A DNA stretch of 33,256 bases from a bacterium (GTDB lineage: Bacteria > SM23-31 > JAUVVT01), in the NCBI GenBank assembly GCA_030616165.1, contig JAUWXV010000010.1, positions 1 to 33,256 on the forward strand. The letters are read 5' to 3'. The position numbers and the translations under genes were made by a program. The notes under the pieces were generated by a model, which was given only the letters and a program-made list of their open reading frames with translations, did not search any database and was not told where the DNA came from. Positions 3,504 through 30,645 of this stretch are shown here, one piece after another. Positions within the stretch are counted from its first letter, which is position 1, and every line of letters starts with the position of its first letter.

Positions 3504-3523
3504 AATTACAAATCCTTCTTTTT

Positions 3524-3634
3524 GCAACTTACTTCTTTTGAAAAAGAAGTAGGCAAGAAAACTTACTATTATTCTGAATATTCAGGATAAGTTTAAAGTT
3601 TCTTTGCTTACTTTCTTTGAAAAGAAAGTAAGTT
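3524..3634. repeat. Compound palindromic intergenic element, copy 1 (aroB/aroQ gap)
   Basis: cttacttcttttgaaaaagaagtagg left hairpin, attctgaatattcaggat centre, ctttgcttactttctttgaaaagaaagtaagtta right hairpin. Confidence 0.75.
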
Positions 3635-4724: not shown

Positions 4725-4731
4725 AGTATTT

Positions 4732-4884
4732 TTTTTCTTTTGAAAAGAAAGTATTTTCCGCCTCTGCTAATATACTTTAGGCAGGATAGAAATTTTAAAC
4801 TCATCACTTATTCCCACGAGCACTCGTGGGAATAAGTGATAACAGCAAGTTTTCTTGCTTACTTCTTTTTCAAAAGAAGTAAGC
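4732..4884. repeat. Compound palindromic intergenic element, copy 2 (aroC/aroB gap)
   Basis: Left hairpin near 4732-4752. Perfect 18-bp central palindrome atcacttattcccacgag-ca-ctcgtgggaataagtgat (4803-4840). Right hairpin gcttacttctttt-tc-aaaagaagtaagc (4857-4884). Confidence 0.85.
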
Positions 4885-6028: not shown

Positions 6029-6167
6029 AATATAACTCTATTAAATTTTTATTTAATAAAATATTCAACTTTAACTTCACTAACTATTATCTTTCGAAAA
6101 ATAAAGTAGAATATTAAAAATATAAAGTCGTATATTTATGATAAAACACCGATAAGAACAGTAAGTC

Positions 6168-6222
6168 AGACATTCTTGTCTGACCATAATATCCGAGGGA
6201 CAGACAGGAATGTCTGTCCTAC
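6168..6222. repeat. Dispersed inverted repeat, 'cagacattcttgtctg' family
   Basis: gtcagacattcttgtctgacc...gggacagacaggaatgtctgtcctact; related sequence recurs at 24220-24330. Confidence 0.55.
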
Positions 6223-6255
6223 TCCAAAATTTACAAAAGTTAAGATTTTTAGTTA

Positions 6256-6398
6256 AAAGTCCTACTTTCTTCGAAAAGAAAATAGGGAAAGAAACTTTTA
6301 ATTCATCATTAATTTCTTGCATATCAAGGAATATGTGATATCAGTAAGTTTTCTTGCTGATGTGGCAATGCCACCTTCTTTTTCAAAAAAGTAAGTCA
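6256..6398. repeat. Compound palindromic intergenic element, copy 3 (aroA/aroC gap, degenerate)
   Basis: agttaaaagtcctactttcttcgaaaagaaaatagggaaagaaacttttaattcat ... gtaagttttcttgctgatgtggcaatgccaccttctttttcaaaaaagtaag. The aroA stop codon falls inside the right arm. Confidence 0.65.
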
Positions 6399-7657
6399 AA
6401 AAATCCAGGAAATGAAATATCAGCCCATTCTGCATCTTTTATTATTGTACTTCCTTCAGCATTGAGCCCGGCAATCGAGAATGCAAGAGCAATCCTGTGG
6501 TCGCCAAAACTTTCGAGTTCTGCTCCCTTAAGTTTGTTTGGTCCATTTATGATTATTCCATCCGAAAGTTCTTTTACATCTGCCCCCAATCTCTTTAAGT
6601 TTGTTACTACTGCCTTTATTCTGTCTGTCTCTTTAACTCTAAGTTCACCTGCATCTTTGATTATTGTTTCTCCCTCAGAAACAGAAGCCACAATTGAAAG
6701 AATGGGAATCTCATCAATAACTCTCGGAATCGTCTCCCCGGATATTTCAATTCCTTTTAATTCAGAAGACTTTACCAGTATATCCGCTACTGGTTCATTA
6801 TTTATCTCTCTCATATTCTGCATATATATATTTGCTCCCATTCTTTTTAATACATCGATAATTCCGGTTCTGGTAGGATTAACTCCCACATCTTTAAGTA
6901 AAATTTCGGAATTATCAACAATCAGCGCTCCGGCAATAAAAAACGCAGCAGATGATAAATCGCCGGGAATAAAAATTTCTCTTCCTTTAAGTTTTTGCCC
7001 TCCTTCAATTGAAATATTATTACCATTGACAGCCACATTTCCGCCCATATACGCCAACATTCGCTCAGAATGGTCTCTCGATTTGTAAGGCTCAAGAATC
7101 TGCGTAATTCCATCTGCATAAAGGGAAGCAAGCATTATTGAAGATTTCACCTGGGCGCTCGCAATGGGCGAAACATATTTTATAGCCGTGAGTTTTTTGC
7201 CAACAATTATAAGAGGGGCGCAATTATCATCACTTTCCCCTTTAATTTCTGCTCCCATCAACTTTAGAGGATTTGTTATCCTTTTCATCGGGCGATTTTG
7301 AATAGAATTATCTCCGGTAATTGTCGATTTAAACTTCTGACCCGCAAGAACACCGGTTAGAAGCCGAATAGTCGTTCCAGAATTGCCAACATCTATTACT
7401 GTCGAAGGCTTCGATAATCCATAAAGCCCTTTACCGTGTATTATTATAGAGTCATTCTTTTCTTCAAATGAGACTCCAAGTTGTTTTAGACACCTAACTG
7501 CACTCTGTATATCGCCACCTGTTCCCAGGTGGGTTATTATTGTATCACCCTCAGCAATCGAACCAAATATCACTGACCTTATCGAGATAGATTTATCCCC
7601 GGGAATAGATATCTCGCCGCGAATACTTTCTGATTTCTTTATTAATTTATTCATCAA
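6383..7657 (-). CDS. aroA: 3-phosphoshikimate 1-carboxyvinyltransferase (EPSP synthase)
   Basis: 424 aa. IPGDKSISIRSVIFGSIAEGDT, GNSGTTIRLLTGVLAGQ, GDNSIQNRPMKRI, SAQVKSSIMLASLYADG, RDHSERML, GDLSSAAFFIAGA, LRVKETDRIKA, GDHRIALAFSIAGL. Confidence 0.97.
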   Translation of the reverse strand: MMNKLIKKSESIRGEISIPGDKSISIRSVIFGSIAEGDTIITHLGTGGDIQSAVRCLKQLGVSFEEKNDSIIIHGKGLYGLSKPSTVIDVGNSGTTIRLLTGVLAGQKFKSTITGDNSIQNRPMKRITNPLKLMGAEIKGESDDNCAPLIIVGKKLTAIKYVSPIASAQVKSSIMLASLYADGITQILEPYKSRDHSERMLAYMGGNVAVNGNNISIEGGQKLKGREIFIPGDLSSAAFFIAGALIVDNSEILLKDVGVNPTRTGIIDVLKRMGANIYMQNMREINNEPVADILVKSSELKGIEISGETIPRVIDEIPILSIVASVSEGETIIKDAGELRVKETDRIKAVVTNLKRLGADVKELSDGIIINGPNKLKGAELESFGDHRIALAFSIAGLNAEGSTIIKDAEWADISFPGFFDLLF

Positions 7658-7724
7658 AAATTCTAAAAATATACAAATTAATTTAATTTTATATATAACA
7701 TCTTAAATAAGATGATATAAGATG

Positions 7725-7805
7725 CTGTTGAGATTGCCTCGTCGCTACGCTCCTCGCAATGACACGTTATACCTGTCATTCCGAGCGAAGCGTGGGAATC
7801 TCATG
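7725..7805. repeat. Dispersed imperfect inverted-repeat element
   Basis: gagattgcctcgtcgctacgctcctcgcaatgacacg...cctgtcattccgagcgaagcgtgggaatctcat. Confidence 0.6.
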
Positions 7806-7921
7806 AAAAATTATCAATCCTTTTTTTCTAAATTTATAATCATATCGTTTATTTATTTATTACGTTTCATATAGTAAATCTTTTATTTCAATTGAATCTT
7901 TAAAAAATATAAATATTCTAA

Positions 7922-8075
7922 AGGTCGGGTTCGATAAATCGAACCCCTACATTTAATAATATGTTAACATTATATTTGTAGGCAACAATATTGTATAAAT
8001 CATTCCCTAATTTTAAGACATTTAATAACATTAATGTTTTATTTGTAGGGGCTTGATTTATCAAGCCTTATTTAA
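7922..8075. repeat. Dispersed short palindromes flanking an AT-rich spacer
   Basis: gggttcgataaatcgaacccctac at about 7927 and gtaggggcttgatttatcaagcc at about 8046. The second type recurs inverted at 30721. Confidence 0.6.
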
Positions 8076-8089
8076 AAATTTGTTAGATT

Positions 8090-8959
8090 TCAGCCTTTTA
8101 ATTTATTGAGTATTTCTCTAAATCGATTTGCCCTTTCAAATTCGCTTTTTAATTTTTCTTTTCCGATTAGTTCTTTAACCTTTTCAAGTTCTTCGATATA
8201 AATAGAAATCACTTTTTTAATATTATTTTGATTGGTTTCGCAAATATCCTTCCAGATTTTAAATTGACTGGAGGCAATCCTCGTCATATCATAAAATCCG
8301 CCTCCCGAAAGTTTGAAAAAATCACCAGAATCATTATCGAACGAACCAACAGCGTTCATAAGTGCAACTGAAAGCATCTGCGGAAGATGACTAACTGCTG
8401 CTACAATTTCATCATGAACCTTTGGTGTAAGAATCACTGGAATAGAGCCGATTGTTATAATTATATCTCTTAATTTATCTATTATCAAGCGTGGAGTATT
8501 CACGCTTGGTATCAATGCATAAGCCTTGTTAATAAAAATACTCAAGTCAGCAGTATCAACACCGCTCTTCTCAGAACCCGCCATAGGATGACCGCCCACG
8601 AAATATACATTATCCCTAAACTCCTCCTGTGCTGTCTCCATAATTTTTTCTTTTGTGCTCCCTATATCAGTAATAATTGTGTCAGAACTAACCATTTTGG
8701 ACAATATTTTAATATGTTCAATTATAATATTAATGGGAGAAGAGAGTATAATCAGAGAAGAGCCGTCTATCCCTTTATCGATTTTTTCATAAGGAAATCC
8801 CCCGTCAATAATCTTCAATTTTAAAGCTTTTTCTATAGTTTCTTCACGCGAAACGCCGACAATTTTTTTCGACATTCCATATTTTTTAAAAGCAAGAGCC
8901 AAGGAACCACCCATAAACCCAACTCCGATAATTGAAATCTGATCAAAATGAGGTTCCAT
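8090..8959 (-). CDS. tyrA: Prephenate dehydrogenase
   Basis: 289 aa. SIIGVGFMGGSLALAFKKYG, DIGSTKEKI, FVGGHPMAGSEKSGVDTA, LTPKVHDEIVAAVSHLPQMLSVAL. Confidence 0.93.
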   Translation of the reverse strand: MEPHFDQISIIGVGFMGGSLALAFKKYGMSKKIVGVSREETIEKALKLKIIDGGFPYEKIDKGIDGSSLIILSSPINIIIEHIKILSKMVSSDTIITDIGSTKEKIMETAQEEFRDNVYFVGGHPMAGSEKSGVDTADLSIFINKAYALIPSVNTPRLIIDKLRDIIITIGSIPVILTPKVHDEIVAAVSHLPQMLSVALMNAVGSFDNDSGDFFKLSGGGFYDMTRIASSQFKIWKDICETNQNNIKKVISIYIEELEKVKELIGKEKLKSEFERANRFREILNKLKG

Positions 8960-9973
8960 TTAAATTCCTCTTTTTAGAGCGTCTACGATAACCTTAAGTT
9001 CTTCCATCAATTTAAAAAATTGGTCAGGATATAGACTTTGTGCCCCATCAGAAAGAGCAGAGTCTGGATTATTATGCACCTCCACCAGTATGCCGTCAGC
9101 ACCTGCTGCAATTGCAGCCCTTGCCATTGGAATCACCTTATCTCTTCTTCCTGTTCCGTGGCTTGGGTCGGCTATTATTGGAAGATGACTTAACTTTTTA
9201 ACTACAGGTATTGCACTTATATCCATTGTAAATCGAGTATAACTCTCAAATGACCTTATTCCTCTTTCGCACAGAATAATTTGATGATTCCCTCCGAGCA
9301 TGATATACTCTGAAGACATAATCAATTCCTCAATAGTAGAAGCCATTCCCCGCTTCAACAGCACTGGCACACTTACCTTTCCCACCTCTTTAAGCATATT
9401 ATAGTTCTGCATATTTCTTGCACCTATCTGCAGAATGTCAGCATACCTTGCAACGATTTCTATTTGGTTAGAATCCATTACTTCAGTAACCATTAGAAGT
9501 TCGTATTTATCTGCAGCTCCCTTCATATATTTAAGCCCCTCCTCGCCGAGCCCCTGAAAACTGTATGGAGATGATCTTGGCTTAAACGCTCCCCCTCTTA
9601 AAATTTTTGCACCAGCCTCTTTTACAATCTTCGCTATCTCATAAATCTGGTCTTTGCTTTCTACTGAACACGGCCCAGCCATCACAACAATATCATTACC
9701 TCCAATTTCTACTCCATGTATATCGATAACAGTATTTTCAGATTTAAATATTCTTCCAGCCAGTTTATAAGGCTCAGTAATTCTAATAACTTCTCTAACA
9801 CCATCAAGAACCTCAAGATCTCTTACATCAATTCCCCTTTTATCGCCAATTGCTCCAAGAACAGTCCTGCTTGTTCCGGTTGACCTGTGAACATCAAAAC
9901 CTAACTGGCTTAATTTATCAATGACATTTCTTATCTGATTTTCTGTTGCTGTGGGCTCCATTACTACTACCAT
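8960..9973 (-). CDS. aroF: 3-deoxy-7-phosphoheptulonate synthase, type I-beta with N-terminal ferredoxin-like domain
   Basis: 337 aa. VMAGPCSVESKDQI, LRGGAFKPRSSPYSFQGLGEEGLK, QIGARNMQNY, PVLLKRGMASTIEE, CERGIRSFE, IADPSHGTGRRDKV, DGILVEVHNNPDSALSDGAQSL. Confidence 0.96.
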   Translation of the reverse strand: MVVVMEPTATENQIRNVIDKLSQLGFDVHRSTGTSRTVLGAIGDKRGIDVRDLEVLDGVREVIRITEPYKLAGRIFKSENTVIDIHGVEIGGNDIVVMAGPCSVESKDQIYEIAKIVKEAGAKILRGGAFKPRSSPYSFQGLGEEGLKYMKGAADKYELLMVTEVMDSNQIEIVARYADILQIGARNMQNYNMLKEVGKVSVPVLLKRGMASTIEELIMSSEYIMLGGNHQIILCERGIRSFESYTRFTMDISAIPVVKKLSHLPIIADPSHGTGRRDKVIPMARAAIAAGADGILVEVHNNPDSALSDGAQSLYPDQFFKLMEELKVIVDALKRGI

Positions 9974-10018
9974 TTTATACCTCTAATTTTTAATAAAACT
10001 TAAGTAAATTTTAAAATT

Positions 10019-10044
10019 TACAACTTTTTTAAAAAAAGTTGTAT
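10019..10044. repeat. Simple intergenic hairpin related to the compound elements
   Basis: tacaacttttttaaaaaaagttgta, similar to the end hairpins near 12476 and 17330. Confidence 0.55.
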
Positions 10045-10054
10045 AAAAAACTTT

Positions 10055-10321
10055 TTACTCACAATATTTTCTTTCAATATTTCTTGATTCATCAATAATT
10101 CTTTCAAAAAGATTTCTTATATTCTTTTCTTCAAGAGGACCTTTATTTGCAAGAAAAAGCTTTTTAAATATTTCGTCTTCTCTTTCAGCAGAATAAAGTG
10201 GAAGTCTTTTTGGTTTTTTTATTTTTCCAATATTTATAACGCATTTAACTCTTTCATTTAAAAGTTCTAAGATTTTTATGTCAATTTCGTCAATCCTTTT
10301 ACGCCAGTCACCAATATCCAT
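10055..10321 (-). CDS. Chorismate mutase (AroQ class, monofunctional)
   Basis: 88 aa. DWRKRIDEIDIKILELLNERVKCVINIGKIKK...YSAEREDEIFKKL...LFERIIDESRNIE. Confidence 0.88.
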   Translation of the reverse strand: MDIGDWRKRIDEIDIKILELLNERVKCVINIGKIKKPKRLPLYSAEREDEIFKKLFLANKGPLEEKNIRNLFERIIDESRNIERKYCE

Positions 10322-10337
10322 AAAATACCTTCCTTTT

Positions 10338-11132
10338 TTATTTTAATGGACTTTTTAGTTTTTTTACGTAATTTTTTACTTTTTCAGGAAGTTCTTTATT
10401 ATTTTTAAATTTTTCAATAAATTTTATTATTGCGCTGCCAACAACAACACCATTTGAGATTTCAGAAATTTTTTTAACGTCTTCCGGTGTCGAGACACCA
10501 AATCCTACCACATAGGGTTTTTTAAGATTCGATTTTAGACGCATTAAATAGGGCTTAACCTCAGAATATAATTTTCCTCTTGTTCCGGTAGTTCCAGTGA
10601 CAGAAACACAGTAAACAAAATCATCTGATAACTCCTCTATTAACCGTATTCTATTATTTGAAGTGGTTGGCGACACGAGAAATATGGTATTAATTTTATA
10701 TCTCCTTGCCAACTTTTTAATTTCATCTGATTCTTCAGGAGGAAGGTCTGGTATGAGGAGACCATCGATACCAATTTTTTGAGAATCTTTAAAAAATCTC
10801 TCTAATCCATATTTCAAGATAGGATTTAGATAACTAAAAAAAATCAGTGGAATTTTAACATTATTTCTAATTTTTTTAATTGTTTTGAAAATCCATTTTA
10901 AAGTAACACCATTTTCTAATGCAGTATGGGAAGAAGCTTGAATAGTCGGGCCATCAGCCATTGGGTCAGAAAAAGGAACGCCAATCTCTACCAAGTCTGC
11001 ACCTCCATCCGCAAGTGCAGGTATGAGTTCTGCAGTCGATTCAAGCCTGGGATATCCTGCAGTTATAAAAGGTATAAATACCTTTTTATTATTCTTTTTT
11101 ACATCTTGAAAAATTTTAGTTATCCTGTTCAT
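10338..11132 (-). CDS. trpA: Tryptophan synthase alpha chain
   Basis: 264 aa. [90 protein letters not shown]. Confidence 0.96.
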
Positions 11133-12316
11133 AACTTTTTTCCCTCTGCCTCGGCGACTATGTCAACATCCTTATCCCCTCTTCCGGATAAGTTTATAAT
11201 AATATTAGTATTTTTGGAGCACTTTGGAGCGATTTTTACAGCATAAGCGACTGCATGTGCACTTTCCAATGCTGGTATTATACCCTCAATTTCAGTCAAT
11301 ATATGAAATGCTTTCAAGGCTTCTTTGTCGGTTGCACTAGTGTAATCGACTCTTCCGATTTCTTTTAGATAACTGTGTTCTGGTCCTACACCAGGATAGT
11401 CGAGACCAGCAGAAATTGAATGAGGTATCTTTATCTGACCATCAAAATCTTGTAAAATATAACTTTTTGAACCATGAAGAACACCTATATCTCCTCTTGC
11501 AAGAGTTGCCGAATGCTTTTGCGAATTTATTCCCAGACCTCCACCCTCAACACCATAAATCTTTACACTTTTATCCTTTAAAAATGGATAAAAAAGCCCT
11601 AAAGCGTTACTTCCACCACCAACACAGGCAATAAGAATTAGAGAACTATTTCTGTTCTTTTTTATTTGAGTTTTTACCTCTCTGCCGATAACAGATTGAA
11701 AGTCTCTAACCAACAAAGGATATGGATAGGGACCTACCGTGGAGCCGAGAAGATAAAATGTATCTCTAACATTAGTAACCCAGTCTCTTAAAGTTTCATT
11801 GATAGCATCCTTCAAGGTTTTACATCCAGACTTTACAGGTATTACATCAGCCCCAAGCAATCTCATTTTATAAAGATTCAGTTTCTGTCTTTCCATATCT
11901 TCTTCGCCCATATATATAACGCATTTCAAACCAAACTTCGCACAAACAGTAGCAACCGCCAATCCGTGCTGTCCAGCACCTGTCTCCGCTATGATTCTTG
12001 TTTTTCCCATTTTTATTGCAAGGAGAATCTGCCCAATGGTGTTATTAATTTTATGTGCTCCCGTATGGAGTAGGTCCTCACGCTTAAGAAAAATCTTTGC
12101 ACCACCCAATTTTTTTGTTAACCTCTCTGCGAAATAAAGAGGTGTTGGACGTCCTGCATATTTTTCAAGATAATGTTTATATTCTTCTATAAACTTTTTA
12201 TCCTTTTTCGCCTGAAAATATGCCATTTCAAGTTCTTCAAGAATTGGAACCAGAGTCTCAGGAACAAACATCCCGCCAAATTTGCCAAAGTAACCTTTTT
12301 TTCTTTTCATTTTCAT
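11129..12316 (-). CDS. trpB: Tryptophan synthase beta chain
   Basis: 395 aa. [101 protein letters not shown]. Confidence 0.97.
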
Positions 12317-12328
12317 AATTTTTATTTT

Positions 12329-12501
12329 TTCAACTTACTTCTTTTTCAAAAGAAGGTGTCATTTTTACATTAGCAAAAAACTTTCAATTAAGTTTTTCCT
12401 CTTACAAGGAGAAATTTTAAAGATTTTTAATTCCTTGTGAAACAAGGAATTAAAAATAGGTTAAAGTTTTTTTGTGCAACTTTTTTTTCAAAAAAAGTTG
12501 C
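12329..12501. repeat. Compound palindromic intergenic element, copy (trpF/trpB gap)
   Basis: acttacttctttttcaaaagaagg left arm. Perfect 15-bp central palindrome tttttaattccttgt-gaa-acaaggaattaaaaa (12424-12456). Right hairpin gcaactttttttt...aaaaaaagttgc (12476-12501). Confidence 0.8.
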
Positions 12502-13099
12502 AAATTTTAACTATCTCTTCAACTTTCCTTATGTCCTTTTTACCAGGTTTAATCTCAACACCTGACGATATATCAACACCGTAAGGATTGACTTTTGCAA
12601 CCGCAGATGAAAGATTTTCCGGATTTAATCCACCTGATAGTATTATTTTTCCGTATTTTTTGGCTTTAACTGCCAAATCCCAATCAAAAACTACTCCTGT
12701 TCCTCCATATTCACCAGTGACGAGACTGTCGAGTAGGAATGCGCTTGCAGTAAATTTTAAAAAAACATCAAATGAAAAATCTTTATTTACTCTAAATGCC
12801 TTGATAATCCTCTTATTGAATTGCCTGTAGTATTCGGGTGTTTCATCACCATGAAACTGTAAAATATCTATTGGACATCTATTCAAAACATCAATAACAC
12901 TTTCCTTTTTTTCATTAACAAATACGCCAACAGTATTGATAAATGGGGGAAGGCAATCTATAATTTCTTTTGCTTTATCAGGAGATATATATCTCTTACT
13001 TTTCGGATAAAAAATAAATCCTAAAGCATTTACTCCTAATTCTGCTATTTTTACAGCATCATCAACTTCGGTTATTCCACAAATTTTTATATAAATCAA
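12488..13099 (-). CDS. trpF: Phosphoribosylanthranilate isomerase
   Basis: 203 aa. IKICGITEVDDAVKIAELGVNALGFIFYPKSKRYI, GVFVNE, LQFHGDETPEY, FLLDSLVTGEYGGTGVVFDW, LSGGLNPENL, GVDISSGVEIKPGKKD. Confidence 0.95.
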   Translation of the reverse strand: MIYIKICGITEVDDAVKIAELGVNALGFIFYPKSKRYISPDKAKEIIDCLPPFINTVGVFVNEKKESVIDVLNRCPIDILQFHGDETPEYYRQFNKRIIKAFRVNKDFSFDVFLKFTASAFLLDSLVTGEYGGTGVVFDWDLAVKAKKYGKIILSGGLNPENLSSAVAKVNPYGVDISSGVEIKPGKKDIRKVEEIVKICNFF

Positions 13100-13875
13100 G
13101 ATGCTCCCTTTAAAAGTTCCATAAGTTTTTCTCCCGGAGAAGGGCTCTTCAATAAAACTTCTCCTATAAGAACCCCATTAAAACCCTTCTCCTTTAGAGC
13201 CTTTATGTCTTCTGATGTTTTAATCCCGCTTTCACTTATTACCAATGAGTTTGAAGGGAGTAAATCTTTTAAACGGAAACTTGTTTCAAGGCTTACCTCA
13301 AATGTCTTAAGGTCTCTGTTGTTTATACCAATAATATCTATCTTTAGTCCTTCAATTTTTTTTAGGTCATCTTCATCGTGAATCTCCACAACGCACTCAA
13401 TCTTAATAGATTTTGCTACTTTGATAAACTTTTCGAGTTCATCTCTTTCAAGGCATCTCGCAATCAAAAGGATAGCATCTGCTCCAATCTTTTTTGATTG
13501 ATAAATTTGATATTCACTGATTATAAAGTCTTTTCTCAATACTGGCAAATTGACCAGTCTTTTTATCGATGAAAGGTGGAGATCGTCTCCGAGAAAAAAT
13601 TTCTTCTCCGTCAGAACTGAAATTGCAGAAGCTCCATTTCTCTCATAACTCCTTGCAATATTTTCTGGGAAATAGTCCTCAAGAATAACTCCACGTGAAG
13701 GAGAGCCCTTCTTCACTTCTGCAATAACAGAAATACCCTTTTTCTTTAATTTCTTTTTAAGACTTTTTGAAGAAAATTTTTTCCCTTTACTCCTTTTTAT
13801 CGAATCTAATGGATTTCTCCTTTCTTCGAGAAAAATTTCTTCCCTTTTTAACGATAAAATCTCTTCAAGAAACAT
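13096..13875 (-). CDS. trpC: Indole-3-glycerol phosphate synthase
   Basis: 259 aa. VIAEVKKGSPSRG, GASAISVLTEKKFFLGD, LPVLRKDFIISEYQIYQSKKIGADAILLIA, IGINNRDLKTFEVSLETS, VISESGIKTSEDI, GVLIGEVLLKS. Confidence 0.96.
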   Translation of the reverse strand: MFLEEILSLKREEIFLEERRNPLDSIKRSKGKKFSSKSLKKKLKKKGISVIAEVKKGSPSRGVILEDYFPENIARSYERNGASAISVLTEKKFFLGDDLHLSSIKRLVNLPVLRKDFIISEYQIYQSKKIGADAILLIARCLERDELEKFIKVAKSIKIECVVEIHDEDDLKKIEGLKIDIIGINNRDLKTFEVSLETSFRLKDLLPSNSLVISESGIKTSEDIKALKEKGFNGVLIGEVLLKSPSPGEKLMELLKGAS

Positions 13876-13927
13876 AATGTTATTATATTTCTAACTCAAT
13901 TTTTACAATTTTTTTAACAAAAATCTA

Positions 13928-14015
13928 TTACTTTCTTTTGAAAAAGAAAGTAACAAAGAAAACTTTCTATTATTTCTAATTCATCCCGATTACTCGGGAT
14001 GAATTAGAAATGGGT
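13928..14015. repeat. Compound palindromic intergenic element, copy (trpD/trpC gap)
   Basis: ttactttcttttgaaaaagaaagtaacaaagaaaactttc followed by perfect 17-bp palindrome tttctaattcatcccga-ttac-tcgggatgaattagaaa (13973-14010). Confidence 0.8.
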
Positions 14016-14094
14016 AAATTTCTTATGTGCTGATTAGTAAATAAGTTTTTAATATTTTAGTAAATTATTCAAAATTTGCCAAATTTTTGTTATA

Positions 14095-15105
14095 CTACTT
14101 TTTATAAATCTCCTTAAGTTGTTCAAGTTTTTTTAGAGCGGAGCCTGAATCAATAGATTTTTCTGCTAATTGAATTCCATCCTCAATTTTATCTACAATA
14201 CCAGACGTTGCAATTGCTGCAGCGGAATTTATGAGAATCATTTCCCTTTTAGGACCTTTAACACCCTTCAGCACATCAACGGCAGAAGCGACGCTTTTTT
14301 CTATATCACCACCTGAAATCTCATTAATACTTCGTCTCGTAAAACCGAAGTCTTCAGGTTTAACGGTATAAGTCCTGACCTTTCCATCATTCAGTTCAGA
14401 GATTTGAGTTTCACCTATATTTGAAATTTCATCGAGACCATCAAACCCATGCACTACAAAAGACTTGATTGTACCGAGGCTTTTCATCACATAGGCAATC
14501 TTTTCTGTCCACTCTGGACTGAATACTCCCATCAATTGACAGGTTGCTCCTGCTGGATTTGTTAAGGGACCAAGGATATTAAAGACAGTTCTGATTGCGA
14601 TTTCCCTGCGTGGACCAATTGCGTATTTCATTGCCTTGTGCAAAAGTGGTGCAAATAAGAAACCGATTCCGATTTCGTTGAGAGATTTTTCAATGACATC
14701 GAGTTCTGCTTCGATGTTGACTCCCAGTGCATTCAGGAGGTCTGCACTTCCACACCTTGATGATACTGCTCTATTTCCGTGCTTGGCAATTATTACACCT
14801 GCTCCTGCCGCCACAAAAGCAGATATTGTAGAAACATTGAACGTATCCTGCATATCTCCTCCAGTCCCGCAGGTGTCAACAATAATTTTATGATTGGACC
14901 TAATCTTTGTTGCCTTTTCACGCATTACCCTCACAAATCCAGTAAGTTCCTCAACAGTCTCTCCCTTCATCCGAAGAGCGGTTATGAATGAACCGAGCTG
15001 GGCAGGTGTTACTGAACCTGTCATTATCTCATCCATCACCGCACTGGCTTCATTCTCGGTTAGATTATTACCTTCTACAACTTTTTTTATGCATTCTTTT
15101 ATCAT
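14095..15105 (-). CDS. trpD: Anthranilate phosphoribosyltransferase
   Basis: 336 aa. DTCGTGGDMQDTFNVSTISAFVAAGAGVIIAKHGNRAVSSRCGSADLLNALGV, HKAMKYAIGPRREIAIRTVFNILGPLTNPAG, VVHGFDGLDEIS. Confidence 0.97.
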   Translation of the reverse strand: MIKECIKKVVEGNNLTENEASAVMDEIMTGSVTPAQLGSFITALRMKGETVEELTGFVRVMREKATKIRSNHKIIVDTCGTGGDMQDTFNVSTISAFVAAGAGVIIAKHGNRAVSSRCGSADLLNALGVNIEAELDVIEKSLNEIGIGFLFAPLLHKAMKYAIGPRREIAIRTVFNILGPLTNPAGATCQLMGVFSPEWTEKIAYVMKSLGTIKSFVVHGFDGLDEISNIGETQISELNDGKVRTYTVKPEDFGFTRRSINEISGGDIEKSVASAVDVLKGVKGPKREMILINSAAAIATSGIVDKIEDGIQLAEKSIDSGSALKKLEQLKEIYKK

Positions 15106-15127
15106 AACTTTTCCTAAATTTTATATC

Positions 15128-15247
15128 TGCAACTTACTTTCTTTGAAAAGAAAGTAAGCAAAGAAACTTTATACCTATTCATCCAAATACTCGGGGAAAT
15201 AATAGTAAGTTTTCTTGCTTACTTCTTTTTCAAAAGAAGTAAGTAAA
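15128..15247. repeat. Compound palindromic intergenic element, copy (trpG/trpD gap)
   Basis: caacttactttctttgaaaagaaagtaagcaaagaaactttatacc ... imperfect centre ... aagttttcttgcttacttctttttcaaaagaagtaag. Confidence 0.8.
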
Positions 15248-15800
15248 GAAAATTTTTTAGCAGTTTTTTACCACCTTCGGTTAAAAAAGACTCTGGATGG
15301 AACTGGACACCTTCAACAGGATATTTTTTGTGTCTGATTCCCATTACAGTTCCGTTTTTGGTTTTTGCGGAGATTTCAAGTTCATTCGGTAAATCCAACG
15401 AATCAACCGCAAGTGAGTGATATCTTGTTGCGTGAAATGGATTTCTCAATCCTTTAAAAATTGTTTTTCCATCGTGATGAATATATGATAATTTACCGTG
15501 AAGTATTTCTGGTGCATTGATAATTTTTCCACCGAAAACATATCCAATTGCTTGATGACCGAGACATACACCCAAAATCGGAAATCTCTCTTTGAATCGT
15601 TTTATAACATCAATACATACACCGCTGTCTTCTGGTCTTTTAGGTCCTGGAGAGAGTATAATATGTGAAGGATTGATTTTTTCAACCTCATCTGCAGTTA
15701 TACTGTCATTCCTGAAAACTGATATCTCTCCACCAAGTTCACCAACAAACTGAACAAGATTATATGTAAAAGAATCGTAATTGTCAATAATTAAAATCAT
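15219..15800 (-). CDS. trpG: Anthranilate synthase component II (glutamine amidotransferase)
   Basis: 193 aa. IIDNYDSFTYNLVQFVGELGG, SPGPKRPEDSGV, ILGVCLGHQAIGYVFGG, RYHSLAVD, GVQFHPESFLTEGGKKLLKNF. C-terminal LLLLKKK* is from the repeat hairpin. Confidence 0.95.
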   Translation of the reverse strand: MILIIDNYDSFTYNLVQFVGELGGEISVFRNDSITADEVEKINPSHIILSPGPKRPEDSGVCIDVIKRFKERFPILGVCLGHQAIGYVFGGKIINAPEILHGKLSYIHHDGKTIFKGLRNPFHATRYHSLAVDSLDLPNELEISAKTKNGTVMGIRHKKYPVEGVQFHPESFLTEGGKKLLKNFLYLLLLKKK

Positions 15801-17277
15801 AATTTCTACCTTCGACCATTGCTATGGATTTAACAAGTGCTTTTGCCTTATTCACAGTTTCGAGGTATTCTTTTGCTGGCACGGAATCGTAAACGATGCC
15901 AGCGCCTGCTTGAATATAAGCAAACCCACCTGATTGGATAATAGTTCGTATGGTGATGCAAAAATCGAGGTTCCCGAACATGTCAAAGTAGCCAACAGCC
16001 CCGGCATATATTCCTCTTCTTGTGGTTTCGAGTTCGTCGATAATTTCCATTGCTCTGATTTTCGGGGCTCCTGAAACTGTTCCTGCAGGAAATCCCGCCT
16101 TCAAAATCTCTATCTGGTCAACATCTTCCTTTATATTACCAGAAACATGTGAAACAATGTGCATAACATGGGAAAACCTGTCAATTTTCATCTTTTCTGG
16201 AAGTCTAATAGTTCCATATTTACAAATTTTCCCCAGGTCGTTTCTTGCGAGGTCAACAAGCATTATATGTTCCGCCCTCTCTTTTGAGTCTCTGAGTAGC
16301 TTCCTTGCAAGTCTTTGATCCTCTTCGATAGTTACGCCCCTTTTAATAGTTCCAGCAAGTGGTCTTGTGGTTACGATGCCATCTTCTGCCTTAATCAACA
16401 CCTCTGGTGATGAACCAATTATCCTTAGTCCGTCATAATCAAAATAATACATATACGGAGAAGGATTTATTCTCCTTAATGCGCGATAGGTATCAAAAGC
16501 ATCAGACTGAACCTCTGCTTTAAATCTCTGGGATAAAACTACCTGGAAAATATCCCCTTTATAAATATAATCTTTTGCGGATTTTATAGATTCTTCAAAC
16601 TGAATTCGGTCGGTATTTGATTCAAGTTCCAGCCTGCCTCTTTTTACCGATGTATCCTTAAAATCATAAATCTCAAAACTTTTCCTTATTTTATGCAAAG
16701 TCTGCTCTATATTATAAACTGCCTCTTCATAAGATTCCTTAAGATTCTTACCTTTGGCCAAAGCATTGGAAATTATCCTGACGGTATGCTGAAAGTGGTC
16801 AACCGCAAGAACAGTATCCACAAATATAAAATAACTTTCAGGCAAATTAAGGTCATCTGTATTATTATCCGGAACGTCTTCAAAAAATCGAATGACGTCA
16901 TAAGAAAAATAACCAACAGCTCCACTGATAAACCTCGGCAAACCCTCCTGTCGTGAGCCTTTGAATTTCTTCAGGTATTTCTTTAGAATATCAAGCGGGT
17001 TTCCACTCAACCGCTCAATTTTGTTGTCTTCTATCAATTCTATCTTAAAACCTTTGCTTTTGAATATCGCCCTCGGATTGAACCCTATAAACGAATATCT
17101 CCCAATTGAGCCGGGTTTTTCTGCACTCTCAAGCAAAAATGAATATCTGGTGTCTGAACAAACCTTTTTATAAAGTGAAACAGGTGTCTCTATATCGCCG
17201 GAAATTTCGGTATACACAGGAATTACTTCATTATATTCCGCTAATTTTTGAAATTCTTCCCAATCTGGATAATACAT
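15784..17277 (-). CDS. trpE: Anthranilate synthase component I
   Basis: 497 aa. FLLESAEKPGSIGRYSFIGFNP, YIYKGDIFQVVLSQRF, RRINPSPYMYYFDYDGLRIIGSSPEVLIK, TRPLAGTIKRG, EHIMLVDLARNDLGKI, FPAGTVSGAPKIRAMEIIDELE, GGFAYIQAGAGIVYDSVPAKEYLET. Confidence 0.96.
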   Translation of the reverse strand: MYYPDWEEFQKLAEYNEVIPVYTEISGDIETPVSLYKKVCSDTRYSFLLESAEKPGSIGRYSFIGFNPRAIFKSKGFKIELIEDNKIERLSGNPLDILKKYLKKFKGSRQEGLPRFISGAVGYFSYDVIRFFEDVPDNNTDDLNLPESYFIFVDTVLAVDHFQHTVRIISNALAKGKNLKESYEEAVYNIEQTLHKIRKSFEIYDFKDTSVKRGRLELESNTDRIQFEESIKSAKDYIYKGDIFQVVLSQRFKAEVQSDAFDTYRALRRINPSPYMYYFDYDGLRIIGSSPEVLIKAEDGIVTTRPLAGTIKRGVTIEEDQRLARKLLRDSKERAEHIMLVDLARNDLGKICKYGTIRLPEKMKIDRFSHVMHIVSHVSGNIKEDVDQIEILKAGFPAGTVSGAPKIRAMEIIDELETTRRGIYAGAVGYFDMFGNLDFCITIRTIIQSGGFAYIQAGAGIVYDSVPAKEYLETVNKAKALVKSIAMVEGRNYDFNY

Positions 17278-17328
17278 AACTATATTCTTTATGTTAAAAA
17301 ATTAAGATTTTGTAAATTTTTATATTTG

Positions 17329-17487
17329 CAACTTTTTGTGTAAAAAAAGTTGCACAAAAAAACTTTTAATTATTTCTCCTCTTACGAGAAGAAATTTAAT
17401 AATTTATAATTCATCCCGAACATTCGGGATGAATTATAAATAGGTATAAAGTTTCTTTGCCTACTTTCTTTTCAAAGAAAGTAGGTT
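17329..17487. repeat. Compound palindromic intergenic element, copy (hisI/trpE gap)
   Basis: gcaactttttgtgtaaaaaaagttgc left hairpin. Perfect 18-bp central palindrome tttataattcatcccgaa-ca-ttcgggatgaattataaa (17403-17440). Right arm aaagtttctttgcctactttcttttcaaagaaagtagg. Confidence 0.85.
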
Positions 17488-17880
17488 TTGTTTATAAATC
17501 TTATTCTTGTCAAATATTTTTTCTCTGATAATTTCGATTTCTCCTTTATCATTAATCTTCCTGAAAAAACAGGAGAAATAGCCTTCGTGACAGGCGCCGC
17601 CGTGTTGTTTTATTTTTAAAAGAATAGTATCTGCATCACAATCGATTAACAATTGTTTAACTTCTTGAAAATTTCCAGAATTTTCTCCCTTAGTCCAGAG
17701 CTTTTGACGTGAACGGCTGTAATAACACGCTTTTTTTCCTTTCAAAGTTTTAATGAGACTTTCTTCGTTCATATAAGCAACCATAACCACTTCCCCGCTG
17801 TCGATATCCTGTGCTACCGCTGGAATAAGTCCGTCTTTATTGAATTTCAATTGTTTTATTATTTCGATAAAATCTGTCAT
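17461..17880 (-). CDS. hisI: Phosphoribosyl-AMP cyclohydrolase (no HisE domain)
   Basis: 139 aa. VAQDIDSGEVVMVAYMNEESLIKTLKGKKACYYSRSRQKLWTKGENSGNFQEV, DCDADTILLKIKQHGGACHEGYFSCF. Ends NLLSLKRK* inside the repeat hairpin. Confidence 0.95.
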   Translation of the reverse strand: MTDFIEIIKQLKFNKDGLIPAVAQDIDSGEVVMVAYMNEESLIKTLKGKKACYYSRSRQKLWTKGENSGNFQEVKQLLIDCDADTILLKIKQHGGACHEGYFSCFFRKINDKGEIEIIREKIFDKNKIYKQNLLSLKRK

Positions 17881-18030
17881 ATTAATTTATCTCCTCACAA
17901 CGATACCTTTCTATCTTTATCTACATTCAAAAAAGGAATTACTTTTTTTGCGTGCATTACATTTATATTACCTTTTTTAATCAATTTATCAATAATAGAT
18001 TCTTTAGAGCATTTAAGATTTCATTAAATT

Positions 18031-18753
18031 TTAAAGTAAAGAGATTGCTTCCTTCAATGAAAACTTCTTTTCATAAAGTGCTTTGCCAACAATAACACCC
18101 TCCAGTCCCGGTTCATTAAGAGATTTTAAATTTTTAATGTCTTCAATAGACGATACTCCACCTGACGCTATTATTTTTAAATTTGTGGATTCGATAATTT
18201 TATTAACTTCTTCAATATTAGGTCCTGTTAACATACCGTCTCTTTTGATATCTGTGTAAATTATCGTCATTATACCCATCTTTTCCATTTCGACTGCCAG
18301 TTCAATTGCCTTAATTTTCGTGGTCTCTTTCCATCCCCTTATTGCTGTATAACCATTTCTCGCATCGATTCCTGCGATTATCTTTTTACTCCCAAATCTT
18401 TTTAATGCCTCTTCGACAAACTTTCTGTTCTCAACAACAGATGTTCCAACTATTACCCTTTCCACACCAGCAGATAAAGCCCACTCAATATCATTCATAG
18501 TTCTTAATCCACCACCGAGTTCAACAGGAATTTTCAATGTTTTTACAATATCCTCTATTATGTTTATGTTTTGGTTAGAACCATCGATTGTTCTGTCAAG
18601 GTCAACCAGATGAAGCAGTTCAGCACCCTCATTTTCCCACTTCAGCGCCATTTCTAAAGGATTATCGCTGTATTCTTTTATATCCCCTTTTTCCCCCTGC
18701 CTGAGCCTCACACATTTGCCTGAACTTATATCAACTGCCGGTATAATTATCAT
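18031..18753 (-). CDS. hisA: Phosphoribosylformimino-5-aminoimidazole carboxamide ribotide isomerase
   Basis: 240 aa. IIPAVDISSGKCVRLRQGEKG, LHLVDLDRTIDGS, PVELGGGLRTMNDI, VIVGTSVV, IYTDIKRDGMLTGPN, IASGGVSSIEDI, GVIVGKALYE. Confidence 0.96.
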   Translation of the reverse strand: MIIIPAVDISSGKCVRLRQGEKGDIKEYSDNPLEMALKWENEGAELLHLVDLDRTIDGSNQNINIIEDIVKTLKIPVELGGGLRTMNDIEWALSAGVERVIVGTSVVENRKFVEEALKRFGSKKIIAGIDARNGYTAIRGWKETTKIKAIELAVEMEKMGIMTIIYTDIKRDGMLTGPNIEEVNKIIESTNLKIIASGGVSSIEDIKNLKSLNEPGLEGVIVGKALYEKKFSLKEAISLL

Positions 18754-18766
18754 AATATAATTTTCT

Positions 18767-18800
18767 CTTACTTCTTTTAAAAAAGAAAGTGGACTTTTAA
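18767..18800. repeat. Degenerate single hairpin of the intergenic element family (hisA/hisB gap)
   Basis: cttacttcttttaaaaaagaaagtggactttt. Confidence 0.5.
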
Positions 18801-18819
18801 AAAAAAAATTAAATTGTAA

Positions 18820-19404
18820 TTACAACATTCCCTTTGTTGAAGCGATACCTCTTATTCTTTCATTATAAGATACAGCTTCCCTTAAAGCAACAGCAAATGC
18901 TTTGAAAACAGCCTCAATCTGATGATGAGTATCATCTCCATACAAGACCTCGATATGAATATTCATCTTAGCGTTTTCCGCAACAGCCTTGAAAAACTCC
19001 TTAATTAGCATAGTATCAATTCCACCTACATTCTCTTTGAGATAAAATTTATACACCAAACGCCCTCTCCCAGATAAATCGACCACTGCTCTCGCCAAAG
19101 ATTCATCCATCGGAATATATGCAACTCCGAATCTATTAATACCTCTTTTATCTCCTAAAGCCTTATTTATAGCCTGACCAATAGTAATCCCCACATCCTC
19201 TATCGTATGATGAAAATCGACATTTATATCACCTGCGGCTTTCATTTCAATGTCTATAAGGCTGTGCTTTGAAAAAAGTTCAAGCATATGGTCAAAAAAT
19301 CCGATACCGCTGTCGATTCTGCTCTCACCTTCACCATCAATATTAACCAAAACCTTTATCTCGGTCTCCTTTGTTTTCCTTTCTACTTCTCCTTTTCTTT
19401 CCAT
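18820..19404 (-). CDS. hisB: Imidazoleglycerol-phosphate dehydratase
   Basis: 194 aa. SRIDSGIGFFDHMLELFSKHSLIDI, DVDFHHTIEDVGI-type motif NVDFHHTIEDVGITIGQA, DLSGRGRLVY, HIEVLYGDDTHHQIEAVFKAFAVALREAV. Confidence 0.96.
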   Translation of the reverse strand: MERKGEVERKTKETEIKVLVNIDGEGESRIDSGIGFFDHMLELFSKHSLIDIEMKAAGDINVDFHHTIEDVGITIGQAINKALGDKRGINRFGVAYIPMDESLARAVVDLSGRGRLVYKFYLKENVGGIDTMLIKEFFKAVAENAKMNIHIEVLYGDDTHHQIEAVFKAFAVALREAVSYNERIRGIASTKGML

Positions 19405-19426
19405 ATTTTTTCTTTAAATTTATTTC

Positions 19427-19503
19427 ATTCCAAATCTTTGCAGAGCAAAGATTTGGAATAAGTTAAAAGTTTCTTTGCTTACTTTCTTTTCAAAGAAAGT
19501 AAG
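19427..19503. repeat. Partial compound palindromic element (hisB/hisC gap)
   Basis: Perfect 15-bp palindrome attccaaatctttgc-aga-gcaaagatttggaat (19427-19459), then aaaagtttctttgcttactttcttttcaaagaaagtaag. Confidence 0.8.
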
Positions 19504-22909: not shown

Positions 22910-23326
22910 CTAAATTATTAATCTCTTTATGCCTTTTTTCAATAAATCTACATTAAAATTAATTAATAACCCAATTCTTTTATTCGTTTCTCTCAAATAT
23001 GTTAATAATTGTGCTTCATATATTTTATTGACTGCTTCTACTGCTTTCAATTCTAAGATAACTTTATCTTCTATCATAAAATCTATTCTATGCTTACCTA
23101 AAACTTTGCCTTTATATTTAAGAGTAATCTCTTTTTGGCGTTCATATACAATATCTCTCATTTTGAATTCATGGGATAATGCTTCCTCATATACATTCTC
23201 TAATAATCCGGGACCTAATATTGAATGAACCTCAATCGCACAAGAAATTATCCTTCCTGTTATATCTTTTAAAGGAAATTCTTTTTGAGTACACAGAGTA
23301 TTACTCTGTGGTCTCTGTGGTTTCAT
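22910..23326 (-). CDS. GxxExxY family protein (PDDEXK-like)
   Basis: 138 aa. ISCAIEVHSILGPGLLENVYEEALSHEFKMRDIVYERQKEITLKYKGKVLGKHRIDFMIEDKVILELKAVEAV matches the GxxExxY signature. Confidence 0.9.
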   Translation of the reverse strand: MKPQRPQSNTLCTQKEFPLKDITGRIISCAIEVHSILGPGLLENVYEEALSHEFKMRDIVYERQKEITLKYKGKVLGKHRIDFMIEDKVILELKAVEAVNKIYEAQLLTYLRETNKRIGLLINFNVDLLKKGIKRLII

Positions 23327-23347
23327 ATTTTCACCCTGATAAAAAAA
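23322..23347. repeat. 26-bp direct repeat, copy 2 (GxxExxY start/RBS, overlapping the attenuator U-tract)
   Basis: ttcatattttcaccctgataaaaaaa, identical to 22793-22818. Confidence 0.95.
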
Positions 23348-23377
23348 AACCGCAAACCTATTTTCAGGTCTGCGGTT
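23341..23377 (-). terminator. Intrinsic terminator (attenuator) of the his-trp-aro operon leader
   Basis: RNA reads AACCGCAGACCU-GAAAAU-AGGUUUGCGGUU followed by U-tract: 12-bp stem with one G-U pair, then 7 or more additional U residues. Confidence 0.93.
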
Positions 23378-23398
23378 ATAACTGTTTTCAAATCAAAT

Positions 23399-23500
23399 CT
23401 ATAAAAAAAGGCTCTTATTATTTGGCAGACCTCTACATTTATAGCGCCAATGCCAGCAATAATAATAATGATTTATTAAAGAAAAAAAATTCTTATACAT
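23399..23500 (-). CDS. Leader peptide MYKNFFSLINHYYYCWHWRYKCRGLPNNKSLFL
   Basis: ATG at 23500 with upstream AAAAGGG at 6-nt spacing; UAG at 23401-23399. 10 of 16 residues from F5 to Y20 are Phe, His, Tyr or Trp. Too short for the supplied ORF track. Confidence 0.88.
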   Translation of the reverse strand: MYKNFFSLINHYYYCWHWRYKCRGLPNNKSLFL

Positions 23501-23525
23501 ATTAATCCCTTTTTATCAATGATAT

Positions 23526-23554
23526 ATAATAATAAAATTAATCATTATTGTCAA
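23526..23554 (-). promoter_or_regulatory. Sigma-70-type promoter for the his-trp-aro operon leader
   Basis: Minus strand TTGACA (23554-23549), exactly 17 bp, TATTAT (23531-23526), about 26 nt upstream of the leader ATG. Confidence 0.85.
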
Positions 23555-23647
23555 GCATTTTTTTAAATCATTTTTAAATCATCATGTATGATATATATAC
23601 ATGGTATTAACCACGAGAGTTAATAAAATTAATTAAATAACCAAAGT

Positions 23648-28410: not shown

Positions 28411-28439
28411 TTGACATTTATATAATATATTTTTATTTT
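28411..28439 (+). promoter_or_regulatory. Putative promoter upstream of the cobalamin riboswitch
   Basis: TTGACA (28411-28416), N17, TATTTT (28434-28439). Confidence 0.55.
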
Positions 28440-28448
28440 CTTTTTGTA

Positions 28449-28613
28449 ATAGGTCCATAATATAGGTTAATAGGGAACACGGTTAAAAACCGTGACGGGC
28501 CCGCCGCTGTGACCGGGTACGAAAACTGCATAAAGCCACTGTCCCGAATTAATCGGGATGGGAAGGTGCAGTGAGTAGGATGAACCGGGAGTCAGAAGAC
28601 CTGCCTATTATAA
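28449..28613 (+). promoter_or_regulatory. Cobalamin riboswitch
   Basis: Conserved core: aataggt...gggaacacggttaaaaaccgtgacgggcccgccgctgtgaccggg...gccactg...gggaaggtgcag...gaaccgggagtcagaagacctgcctatta. Confidence 0.95.
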
Positions 28614-28677
28614 TTAGTTAATTAGTTCTTACCCTCGTGGGCAGGGTTAAAGAGCGGAGTTTGAGGATAAAAAAGGG

Positions 28678-28731: not shown

Positions 28732-30645
28732 ATGAAAAGGTGTGTTTTTGTCTTACTAATAGCAGTTCTGCCGACTTCGGTTTTTTCTCAACAAGAAAAA
28801 ACTCCAATCTATAAGGGTGATGAAGTGGTTATAACTGCTACCCGTATAGAAATGCCGCAGAGAGCAATTGGAAGGTCTGTTTCTTTGATATCTTCCTGGG
28901 AATTAGAGCATTATAAGAAAATATCAATATCAAATATTTTAAGGGATATTCCTGGTCTGGATGTTACACAAAATGGAGGAATAGGGCAGCCAAGTTCGGT
29001 CTTCATAAGAGGAGCAAAGTCTGAACATACACTTGTAATGATAGATGGATTAGAGGTGAATGACCCAATATCACCGGGAAGGTCATTCGATTTTGCTCAC
29101 CTTATCCCTGATGGAGTTGAAAGGATAGAAATAATAAAAGGACCGCAGAGCACACTCTATGGCTCAGATGCAATAGGTGGAGTAATAAATATCATAAGCA
29201 AAAAAGGCATAAAAGGGCCGTCTATTCTAATATCAGGGGAGACTGGTTCATACGGTTCATATAGAGAGAATATTCAAACAAGCGGAGCTTCTAACAATAT
29301 TAATTATAATTTATCTTTATCAAGGCTCGACTTCAAGGGATTTTCTGCAGCAGGAGAAAAATATGGCAACAAAGAAAAGGATGGTTACAGCAACACGAAT
29401 CTTTCAGGAAAAACAGGAATAAAATTATCACAAAATTCATCATTTAATCTCATGTTCCGTTATATTAATTCCAAAACTGACCTGGATAATATGGGGGGAG
29501 TATTCGGTGATGACCCTAATTACACTTCAAAAGAAAAACAATTTTATTTAAAAAGTCAGTTTACTGTTGATACATTTAACAAAAAATGGACACAGGTCTA
29601 TTCATTTTCATTTATGGAAAATAAACGCAAATATTTAAATGAGAAAGATACAGTTCATCCTGATGATTTTGTTGATAGTAATTACAATAGTAGATCATAT
29701 AAAATCGATTTCCAGAACAATGTTTTTGCTAATGAAATGAATACACTTGCTTTTGGATTGGAATTTGAGAAAGAAAAAGGGGATTCACGATATTATTCTG
29801 AAAGTATGTGGGGACCTTATGAAGCTATCTTCCCAAATAAGGAAACAAATATTTTAGGGATTTATCTTCATGACAATATGAACATTAACAATACTTTTTT
29901 GCCTACTTTTGGGATAAGATATGATAAGCACAATATATATGGTTCATCAACGACATTTCATGTTGCGCCTGTGTATTTTGTCAATAAATCAAATACAAAG
30001 TTAAGAGCAAGTTTTGCGACAGGTTTTAAAGCACCTTCATTGTATCAATTATATTCTCAATACGGTGATATAAAATTAAAACCGGAAAAGGTAAAAGGCT
30101 TTGATTTTGGAATTGAGCAATACATTTACAAAGAAAACATCTCTTTTTCCGCAGCATACTTTCACAATGATTTTAGTAATATGATTGATTTTGAAAGCAA
30201 CCTATCAAAGTACGTAAATACAGGAAAAGCCCAGACGAGTGGAATAGAAATAGAAATGGCTGTCAGACCGTTGCCTAAAATTTATTTGAAGGTTTTTTAC
30301 ACCCACTTAAAAACGCTTGATAAACTAACAAAAAAAGAACTACTGCGACGGGCAAAAAATAAGGGAGGATTCAACATTAATTATTCAGTCTTTGATAAAA
30401 TCAATCTCAACGCAAACTTAATTTATACCGGCAGTAGATATGATATGGATTATTCAACCTGGCCAGCACAAAGAAAATTACTTGATAAATATACGAAAAT
30501 TGACTTAACTGCTTATTATGACATTTATGAAAATTTGCAGTTTTTCAGCCGAATAGAAAATCTTACCAATCAAGTTTATGAAGATGTAATCGGATACGGA
30601 ACACCTAAAAGGTCAGTCTATTTGGGGTTTAAGTTTATTTATTGA
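28732..30645 (+). CDS. btuB: TonB-dependent outer-membrane receptor, BtuB-like
   Basis: 637 aa. Signal peptide; plug domain DEVVITATRIEMPQRAIGRSVSLIS, ILRDIPGLDVTQNGGIGQPSSVFIRGAKSEHTLVMIDGLEVNDP, GVERIEIIKGPQSTLYGSDAIGGVINIIS; ends in a C-terminal beta-strand with aromatic residues. Cobalamin riboswitch upstream. Confidence 0.92.
   Translation: MKRCVFVLLIAVLPTSVFSQQEKTPIYKGDEVVITATRIEMPQRAIGRSVSLISSWELEHYKKISISNILRDIPGLDVTQNGGIGQPSSVFIRGAKSEHTLVMIDGLEVNDPISPGRSFDFAHLIPDGVERIEIIKGPQSTLYGSDAIGGVINIISKKGIKGPSILISGETGSYGSYRENIQTSGASNNINYNLSLSRLDFKGFSAAGEKYGNKEKDGYSNTNLSGKTGIKLSQNSSFNLMFRYINSKTDLDNMGGVFGDDPNYTSKEKQFYLKSQFTVDTFNKKWTQVYSFSFMENKRKYLNEKDTVHPDDFVDSNYNSRSYKIDFQNNVFANEMNTLAFGLEFEKEKGDSRYYSESMWGPYEAIFPNKETNILGIYLHDNMNINNTFLPTFGIRYDKHNIYGSSTTFHVAPVYFVNKSNTKLRASFATGFKAPSLYQLYSQYGDIKLKPEKVKGFDFGIEQYIYKENISFSAAYFHNDFSNMIDFESNLSKYVNTGKAQTSGIEIEMAVRPLPKIYLKVFYTHLKTLDKLTKKELLRRAKNKGGFNINYSVFDKINLNANLIYTGSRYDMDYSTWPAQRKLLDKYTKIDLTAYYDIYENLQFFSRIENLTNQVYEDVIGYGTPKRSVYLGFKFIY

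Follow-up and report, generated by a model that had tools for sequence, protein, structure and literature searches.

A putative trp-type attenuator with mixed histidine, tyrosine and tryptophan codons ahead of a his-trp-aro gene array

A stretch of 33,256 nucleotides from an uncultured bacterial lineage (hereafter the window) carries on its minus strand what is almost certainly, judging from its sequence and comparisons, a ribosome-mediated transcription attenuator lying ahead of a his-trp-aro gene array. The assignment is well supported by a divergent relative, antiterminator segments that have changed yet stay complementary, geometry and context, and the attenuator is likely to be of the trp type, with a mixed control region that would sense His, Tyr and Trp. 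Attenuator leaders are textbook sensors for the amino acids of one pathway, and it is established that a leader can read more than one product of the same pathway, whereas this single leader seems to respond to products of both the histidine and the aromatic pathway, which are separate. The novelty is the mixed His/Tyr/Trp leader across two pathways; ribosome-mediated attenuation itself is already known. We lean towards a broader reading in which a trp-type attenuator that had captured the whole his cluster was changed by point mutations into a His/Tyr/Trp OR gate over two pathways, a His+Trp leader over hisI-trpE arose independently elsewhere, and the codon content of leaders forms a fast-evolving, readable record of operon joining.

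Anatomy of the leader region

All coordinates of the leader and the array refer to the minus strand. An earlier, sequence-only reading of the window had proposed a promoter, a leader ORF with a biased composition, an antiterminator and a terminator here, and each of these parts was recovered. The promoter-like TTGACA-N17-TATTAT (23554-23526) agrees with the consensus at 11 of 12 positions and is the best of seven such matches, against 7.5 expected, which gives it little weight alone; at the corresponding spot the nearest relative, genome G001, has TTGACA and then an AT-rich TATAAT-like stretch. A ribosome-binding site, AAAAAGGG (23514-23507), precedes a 33-codon ORF (23500-23399) encoding MYKNFFSLINHYYYCWHWRYKCRGLPNNKSLFL, which is recognised by its sequence, its composition and its counterpart in G001. 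When the ORF was dinucleotide-shuffled, only 0.02% of the shuffles reached ten or more F, H, Y or W codons out of 16. In a screen of 21,201 small ORFs, which took in both strands of every locus then in the comparison, only the window leader and the G001 leader combined such a run with at least two H and at least two W.

Stall-folding places the control codons at H11 Y12 Y13 Y14 C15 W16 H17 W18 R19 Y20 (23470-23441). The competing 1:2 hairpin, a pause or anti-antiterminator structure that starts within these codons as had been claimed, is present in the minimum free energy (MFE) fold at 23465-23415. Segment 2, the antiterminator half in codons 23-25 (23432-23425; AGGTCTGC), is perfectly complementary to GCAGACCT within the 5' arm of the terminator, and the 2:3 duplex AGGUCUGC/GCAGACCU reaches -14.5 kcal/mol (shuffle P 0.004). 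The intrinsic terminator itself, segments 3:4 (23377-23348), has a stem of 13 base pairs, G-U pairs counted, at -18.5 kcal/mol, with a T run behind it, and is the sole strong one on the operon strand from the attenuator to the end of the array. The attenuator region as a whole folds more stably than its dinucleotide shuffles (z -2.65 and z -2.82). The locus combines a short ORF with a start codon and ribosome-binding site upstream of an operon, control codons cognate to the operon's products (H/Y/W against His and Trp synthesis and the Tyr-branch gene tyrA), an intrinsic terminator between the ORF and the first structural gene, an antiterminator that cannot coexist with this terminator and has its 5' half immediately past the control codons, and conservation with compensating changes in G001 and three trp leaders of the same class.

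In the MFE fold the leader's own ribosome-binding site also pairs with CCUUUUUUU beyond segment 2, at about 23411-23405 (AAAAAGG/CCUUUUU). The ribosome-binding site of the G001 leader (L002, about 608-616) likewise pairs past segment 2, through a different sequence (AGGAAGC/GCUUCUU), and such pairing in both family leaders may limit re-initiation. Searches with Rfam covariance models returned no leader family for the attenuator, and no T-box match appeared within 23300-23600 even at E<=10, so that the region does not group with T-boxes or amino-acid riboswitches. A sub-threshold match to the Rfam trpB motif (31 bits against a cut-off of 59) was taken as terminator resemblance. The sole Rfam match in the window is a cobalamin riboswitch at 28434-28622 (119.9 bits), just before a TonB-dependent-receptor-like gene at 28732-30645.

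The downstream gene array and its first gene

The his genes hisG (22797-21925), hisD (21908-20619), hisC (20604-19504), hisB (19404-18820), hisA (18753-18031) and hisI (17880-17461) are followed on the same strand by trpE (17277-15784), trpG (15800-15219), trpD (15105-14095), trpC and trpF (13875-12488) and trpB and trpA (12316-10338). Beyond them lie chorismate mutase (10321-10055), DAHP synthase (9973-8960), tyrA for prephenate dehydrogenase (8959-8090) and a block at 7657-1336 with aroA, aroC and aroB, named by NCBIfam, and aroQ, aroK and aroE, recognised by sequence only. NCBIfam models named the other array genes above their cut-offs or as the clear best match, except for chorismate mutase, whose best model matched over its full length but below the curated cut-off, and tyrA, whose best models also fell below theirs. 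The fused his-trp-aro cluster proposed earlier stands as a same-strand array, but its first gene is not hisG, and hisH and hisF are missing from it; hisF is encoded on contig C202, and prephenate dehydratase and a second DAHP synthase lie outside the array on contig C295. No queuosine genes were seen in the array. G001 differs in that hisH and hisF are inside its array.

The first ORF past the terminator and ahead of hisG is a GxxExxY-family gene (23326-22910; TIGR04256, 142 bits). It is flanked by 26-bp perfect direct repeats, TTTTTTTATCAGGGTGAAAATATGAA, at 23347-23322 and 22818-22793, and the repeat contains the ribosome-binding site and start codon of hisG. Because G001 lacks the gene, the most plausible interpretation is a recent insertion with target duplication. 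The family has six matches in the window genome.

In the window genome, trpE, aroA and aroC are preceded by intergenic gaps of 183, 432 and 354 nt, respectively, which could give room for internal promoters. Palindromic repeats of related sequence, CTTACTTTCTTTTCAAAGAAAGTAAG and GCAAAGAAACTT, occur in many of the gaps across window positions 3500-19500. The single promoter at 23554-23526 would serve the whole array, and it is fairly likely that the attenuator governs the entire his-trp-aro array.

Conservation in the nearest relative

G001, the only other genome of the family among those compared, is the nearest relative of the window genome (HisG 79% identical). These two are the only genomes with the mixed leader, and both are metagenome assemblies. 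The comparison upstream of hisG that the sequence-only reading had suggested came out in its favour: G001 keeps both the terminator and a leader ORF with H/Y/W codons. Its leader, MKNIYFTHIYIHFHYWYWNHKSRGLP, stands directly before hisG, shares an identical AGAGGTCTGCC with the window leader and is followed by an almost identical terminator (ACCGCAGACC...GGTTTGCGGT). The length from M1 to RGLP is equal in the two leaders, with RGLP at codons 23-26 in both. W16 and W18 are common to the two, and positions 12, 13, 14, 17 and 20 swap among H, Y and F, which is what selection on membership in an amino-acid set would look like in sequence.

The G001 array is spread over several contigs rather than one, and is tighter than that of the window. 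Its trpE follows hisI by about 100 nt, trpE and trpG overlap, as do tyrA and aroA, and trpF-B-A-CM-DAHPS-tyrA-aroA-aroC are contiguous on another contig than hisI-trpE. No separate trp leader was found before trpE in either the window genome or G001.

Separate leaders in the class and the origin of the mixed leader

The other sampled family of the class comprises three genomes (G002, G004 and G005), in all of which his and trp are apart and each has its own leader. The hisG leaders of this family are His-rich (HHHHHHHH, HRHHHH and NFHHHYHHVAFRY), and the trpE leaders are rich in Trp and Tyr, with YYWWWY in G005, SYWWYYWY in G004 and AYYYWWNWY in G002; the trpE leader peptides of G002, G004 and G005 read MLGHLSFYSAYYYWWNWYSKILCPQLKRM, MAELKLHKVRESYWWYYWYCKQYEFTDWCD and MILFSVKYYWWWYIMEESAV, respectively. 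In local alignments scored against shuffles, the window leader matched the G002 trp leader at z 8.3, and the G001 leader matched the trp leaders of G005 and G004 at z 8.2 and z 7.3. Overall, the two family leaders scored z 3.6-8.3 against the class trp leaders, placing them with the trp type, and z -0.7 to 0.7 against the class his leaders of the same three genomes, which sets them apart from the his type.

The RNA elements agree with this assignment. Segment 2 starts at codon 23 in the window leader and in the trp leaders of G002 and G004, and at codon 23-24 in G001. Both this placement of segment 2 and the AACCGC core of the terminator are in accord with the trp type. Segment 2 is identical in the window and G001 leaders; in the class trp leaders its sequence varies together with that of segment 3, and complementarity is kept. 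Codon 17 of the window leader, His CAT, aligns with Asn AAT in the G002 trp leader.

From these sequence comparisons, the family leader probably descends from a class Trp/Tyr leader that preceded trpE. Given homology to the trp leaders and none to the his leaders, it is probable that the his cluster ended up between a trp-type leader and trpE, and that this leader then gained His codons. The simplest history would have either the his cluster shifting to a position downstream of the trp leader or the leader being copied to a position before hisG; we infer the direction.

Proposed mechanism and its alternatives

Stall-folding was modelled with the ribosomal A site at each codon, the RNA hidden to 13 nt downstream and the remainder folded up to the terminator loop. 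For the window leader, the G001 leader and those class trp leaders that were modelled, stalls as far as the final control codon are predicted to leave the antiterminator available, in part only at codon 20, whereas stalls some two codons further on abolish it. In the window leader, the competing 1:2 fold has an energy of about -16 kcal/mol for a stall at F5 (-15 to -16.5 for F5/F6), -12.4 at H11, -10.3 at Y13-14 and -6.6 at W16/H17/W18. Because these energies fall along the codons, the late Trp and His codons would be expected to be the strongest sensors and Tyr the next, with Phe inactive. For untranslated RNA, the equilibrium model, which ignores co-transcriptional order, predicts the antiterminator where the mechanism would call for termination.

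In the proposed mechanism, a ribosome pausing within codons 11-20 at a codon for Trp, His or Tyr would mask segment 1 and free segment 2, AGGUCUGC. The freed segment would capture the terminator's 5' half, GCAGACCU, by base pairing, which would let RNA polymerase continue into the his-trp-aro array. With charged tRNAs, the ribosome would advance onto segment 2 and the terminator would form; with no translation, the 1:2 hairpin would sequester segment 2 and the terminator would again form, relying on co-transcriptional order. Since a stall at any cognate codon would suffice, a shortage of His, Trp or Tyr alone would be predicted to raise all downstream genes, as in an OR gate.

The leader had been read earlier as a four-way sensor in which Phe starvation also relieves termination. 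The His, Tyr and Trp parts of that claim held up against the relative, the homology and the stall-folding, but Phe sensing is unlikely, and the modelling suggests that it probably does not occur in the window genome. F5 and F6 do lie within the window leader, and G001 has F6 and F13; yet stalls at F5/F6 leave the 1:2 fold at full strength, F32 sits past the antiterminator segment, and the class trp leaders homologous to this one show no enrichment of Phe. Phe sensing is doubtful because F5 and F6 precede the competing hairpin and the gene for prephenate dehydratase is not part of the array, although the Phe-containing leaders of other lineages described below make such sensing possible elsewhere. 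A somewhat more credible, though still improbable, alternative accepts the attenuator as real and confines its effect to the adjoining genes, GxxExxY and his, with trp and aro expressed mainly from internal promoters. The repeat-filled gaps before trpE, aroA and aroC speak for it. Against it, Trp/Tyr-rich codons in a trp-type leader would be pointless under his-only control, the array is uninterrupted by intrinsic terminators, genes in the G001 array are tighter and overlap, and neither genome retains a separate trp leader before trpE.

Two further alternatives concern the codons themselves. Queuosine reads CAY, UAY and AAY, and the E. coli trp and his attenuators are tuned by tRNA modification, so the bias towards H, Y and N codons, which fall in the queuosine set, might report tRNA modification or a general slowing of translation rather than amino-acid supply. 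We regard this as very improbable: the conserved Trp codons 16 and 18 are outside that set, codon content tracks operon content in four lineages, and the array is without a visible queuosine gene. Chance, in the form of an AT-rich, F/Y-rich ORF beside an ordinary terminator, is given almost no credence. AT-rich DNA does favour F and Y codons, but this explanation is already contradicted by the shuffle test (0.0002), by the uniqueness of the window and G001 leaders among the 21,201 ORFs, by the H/Y/W content kept in the diverged G001 and by the homology to Trp/Tyr leaders.

Leaders in other lineages

A class of about 80 species, represented by G043 and unrelated to that of the window, has a His+Trp leader (typically ...NHWHWW...), a terminator and then hisI and trpE in 28 of the 30 trpE loci examined (L279-L308). 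This leader is apparently of independent origin. Its NHWHWW block is nearly invariant at the DNA level, and its conservation could therefore partly reflect RNA pairing rather than codons. In the phylum of G049, most of 29 loci have His-only leaders before hisG, which is the usual arrangement. The same genome has a Phe/Tyr leader, MKRKLKIFNYFYYYDLFSVVEGER, before an aro cluster (L121:14330-14404), and G268 has a Trp/Phe leader, MKLKGIKSIIYRLWWFFWQGGLHASA, before trpE (L143, minus strand, about 78-159).

A survey of about 90 trpE upstream regions gave five sense and no antisense matches at a strict threshold and 21 sense versus 16 antisense at a loose one; the loose matches being mostly noise, only strict ones were used. 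G268 fell just below the strict filter, and the strict match in G019 seems to belong to a protein-coding gene. Linkage of hisF-hisI-trpE is common in other phyla, and no mixed leader was found before these arrays except in the G043 class. As hisI-trpE linkage often occurs without a leader, joining alone does not imply a mixed leader. Taken together, the lineages support a rule by which leader codons follow operon content.

Significance and comparison with known systems

The sister family with two separate leaders presumably represents the earlier state, and offers a before-and-after pair for regulatory rewiring on operon joining. The rule that leader codons mirror the operon is usable for annotating uncultured phyla, and the conserved NHWHWW leader of another class makes the principle testable in a much larger genome set. 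Ribosome-mediated attenuation is established, with the ilvGMEDA and thr operons of enterobacteria among those listed as attenuated (PMC1183508), trp, ilv and leu leaders known from Actinobacteria (PMC1262725) and his leaders from bacilli (PMC2965389). According to PMC2965389 (2010), leader-peptide systems had been shown only in Proteobacteria and Actinobacteria before that work added bacilli. In line with the earlier remark that no example was known, we found no description of a His+aromatic cross-pathway leader in the open-access literature, which is weak evidence of absence.

One of the closest counterparts is the trpL attenuator of E. coli, other Proteobacteria and Actinobacteria, which has a Trp-codon leader ORF, 1:2, 2:3 and 3:4 stems and a terminator before the operon, and in which the ribosome-binding site of the leader may likewise pair with leader RNA further downstream. 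The window leader differs in its added His and Tyr codons, in hisG as the first biosynthetic gene, in having no Rfam match and in its uncultured lineage. Like the poly-His leader hisL, it precedes hisG and has His codons in the effective control region, but only two of the codons in its 16-codon stretch are His, interspersed with Tyr and Trp, and it is not homologous to the His-rich leaders of its own class. The enterobacterial ilvGMEDA leader reads Ile/Val/Leu and the thr leader Thr/Ile, so that there, too, a single leader reads several operon-linked amino acids; these come from linked branches within a single family of pathways, whereas the window attenuator joins the separate histidine and aromatic pathways. 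The NHWHWW leader of the G043 class also reads both His and Trp ahead of a his-trp gene pair, but in another sequence, another operon (hisI-trpE-trpG recognised) and another lineage.
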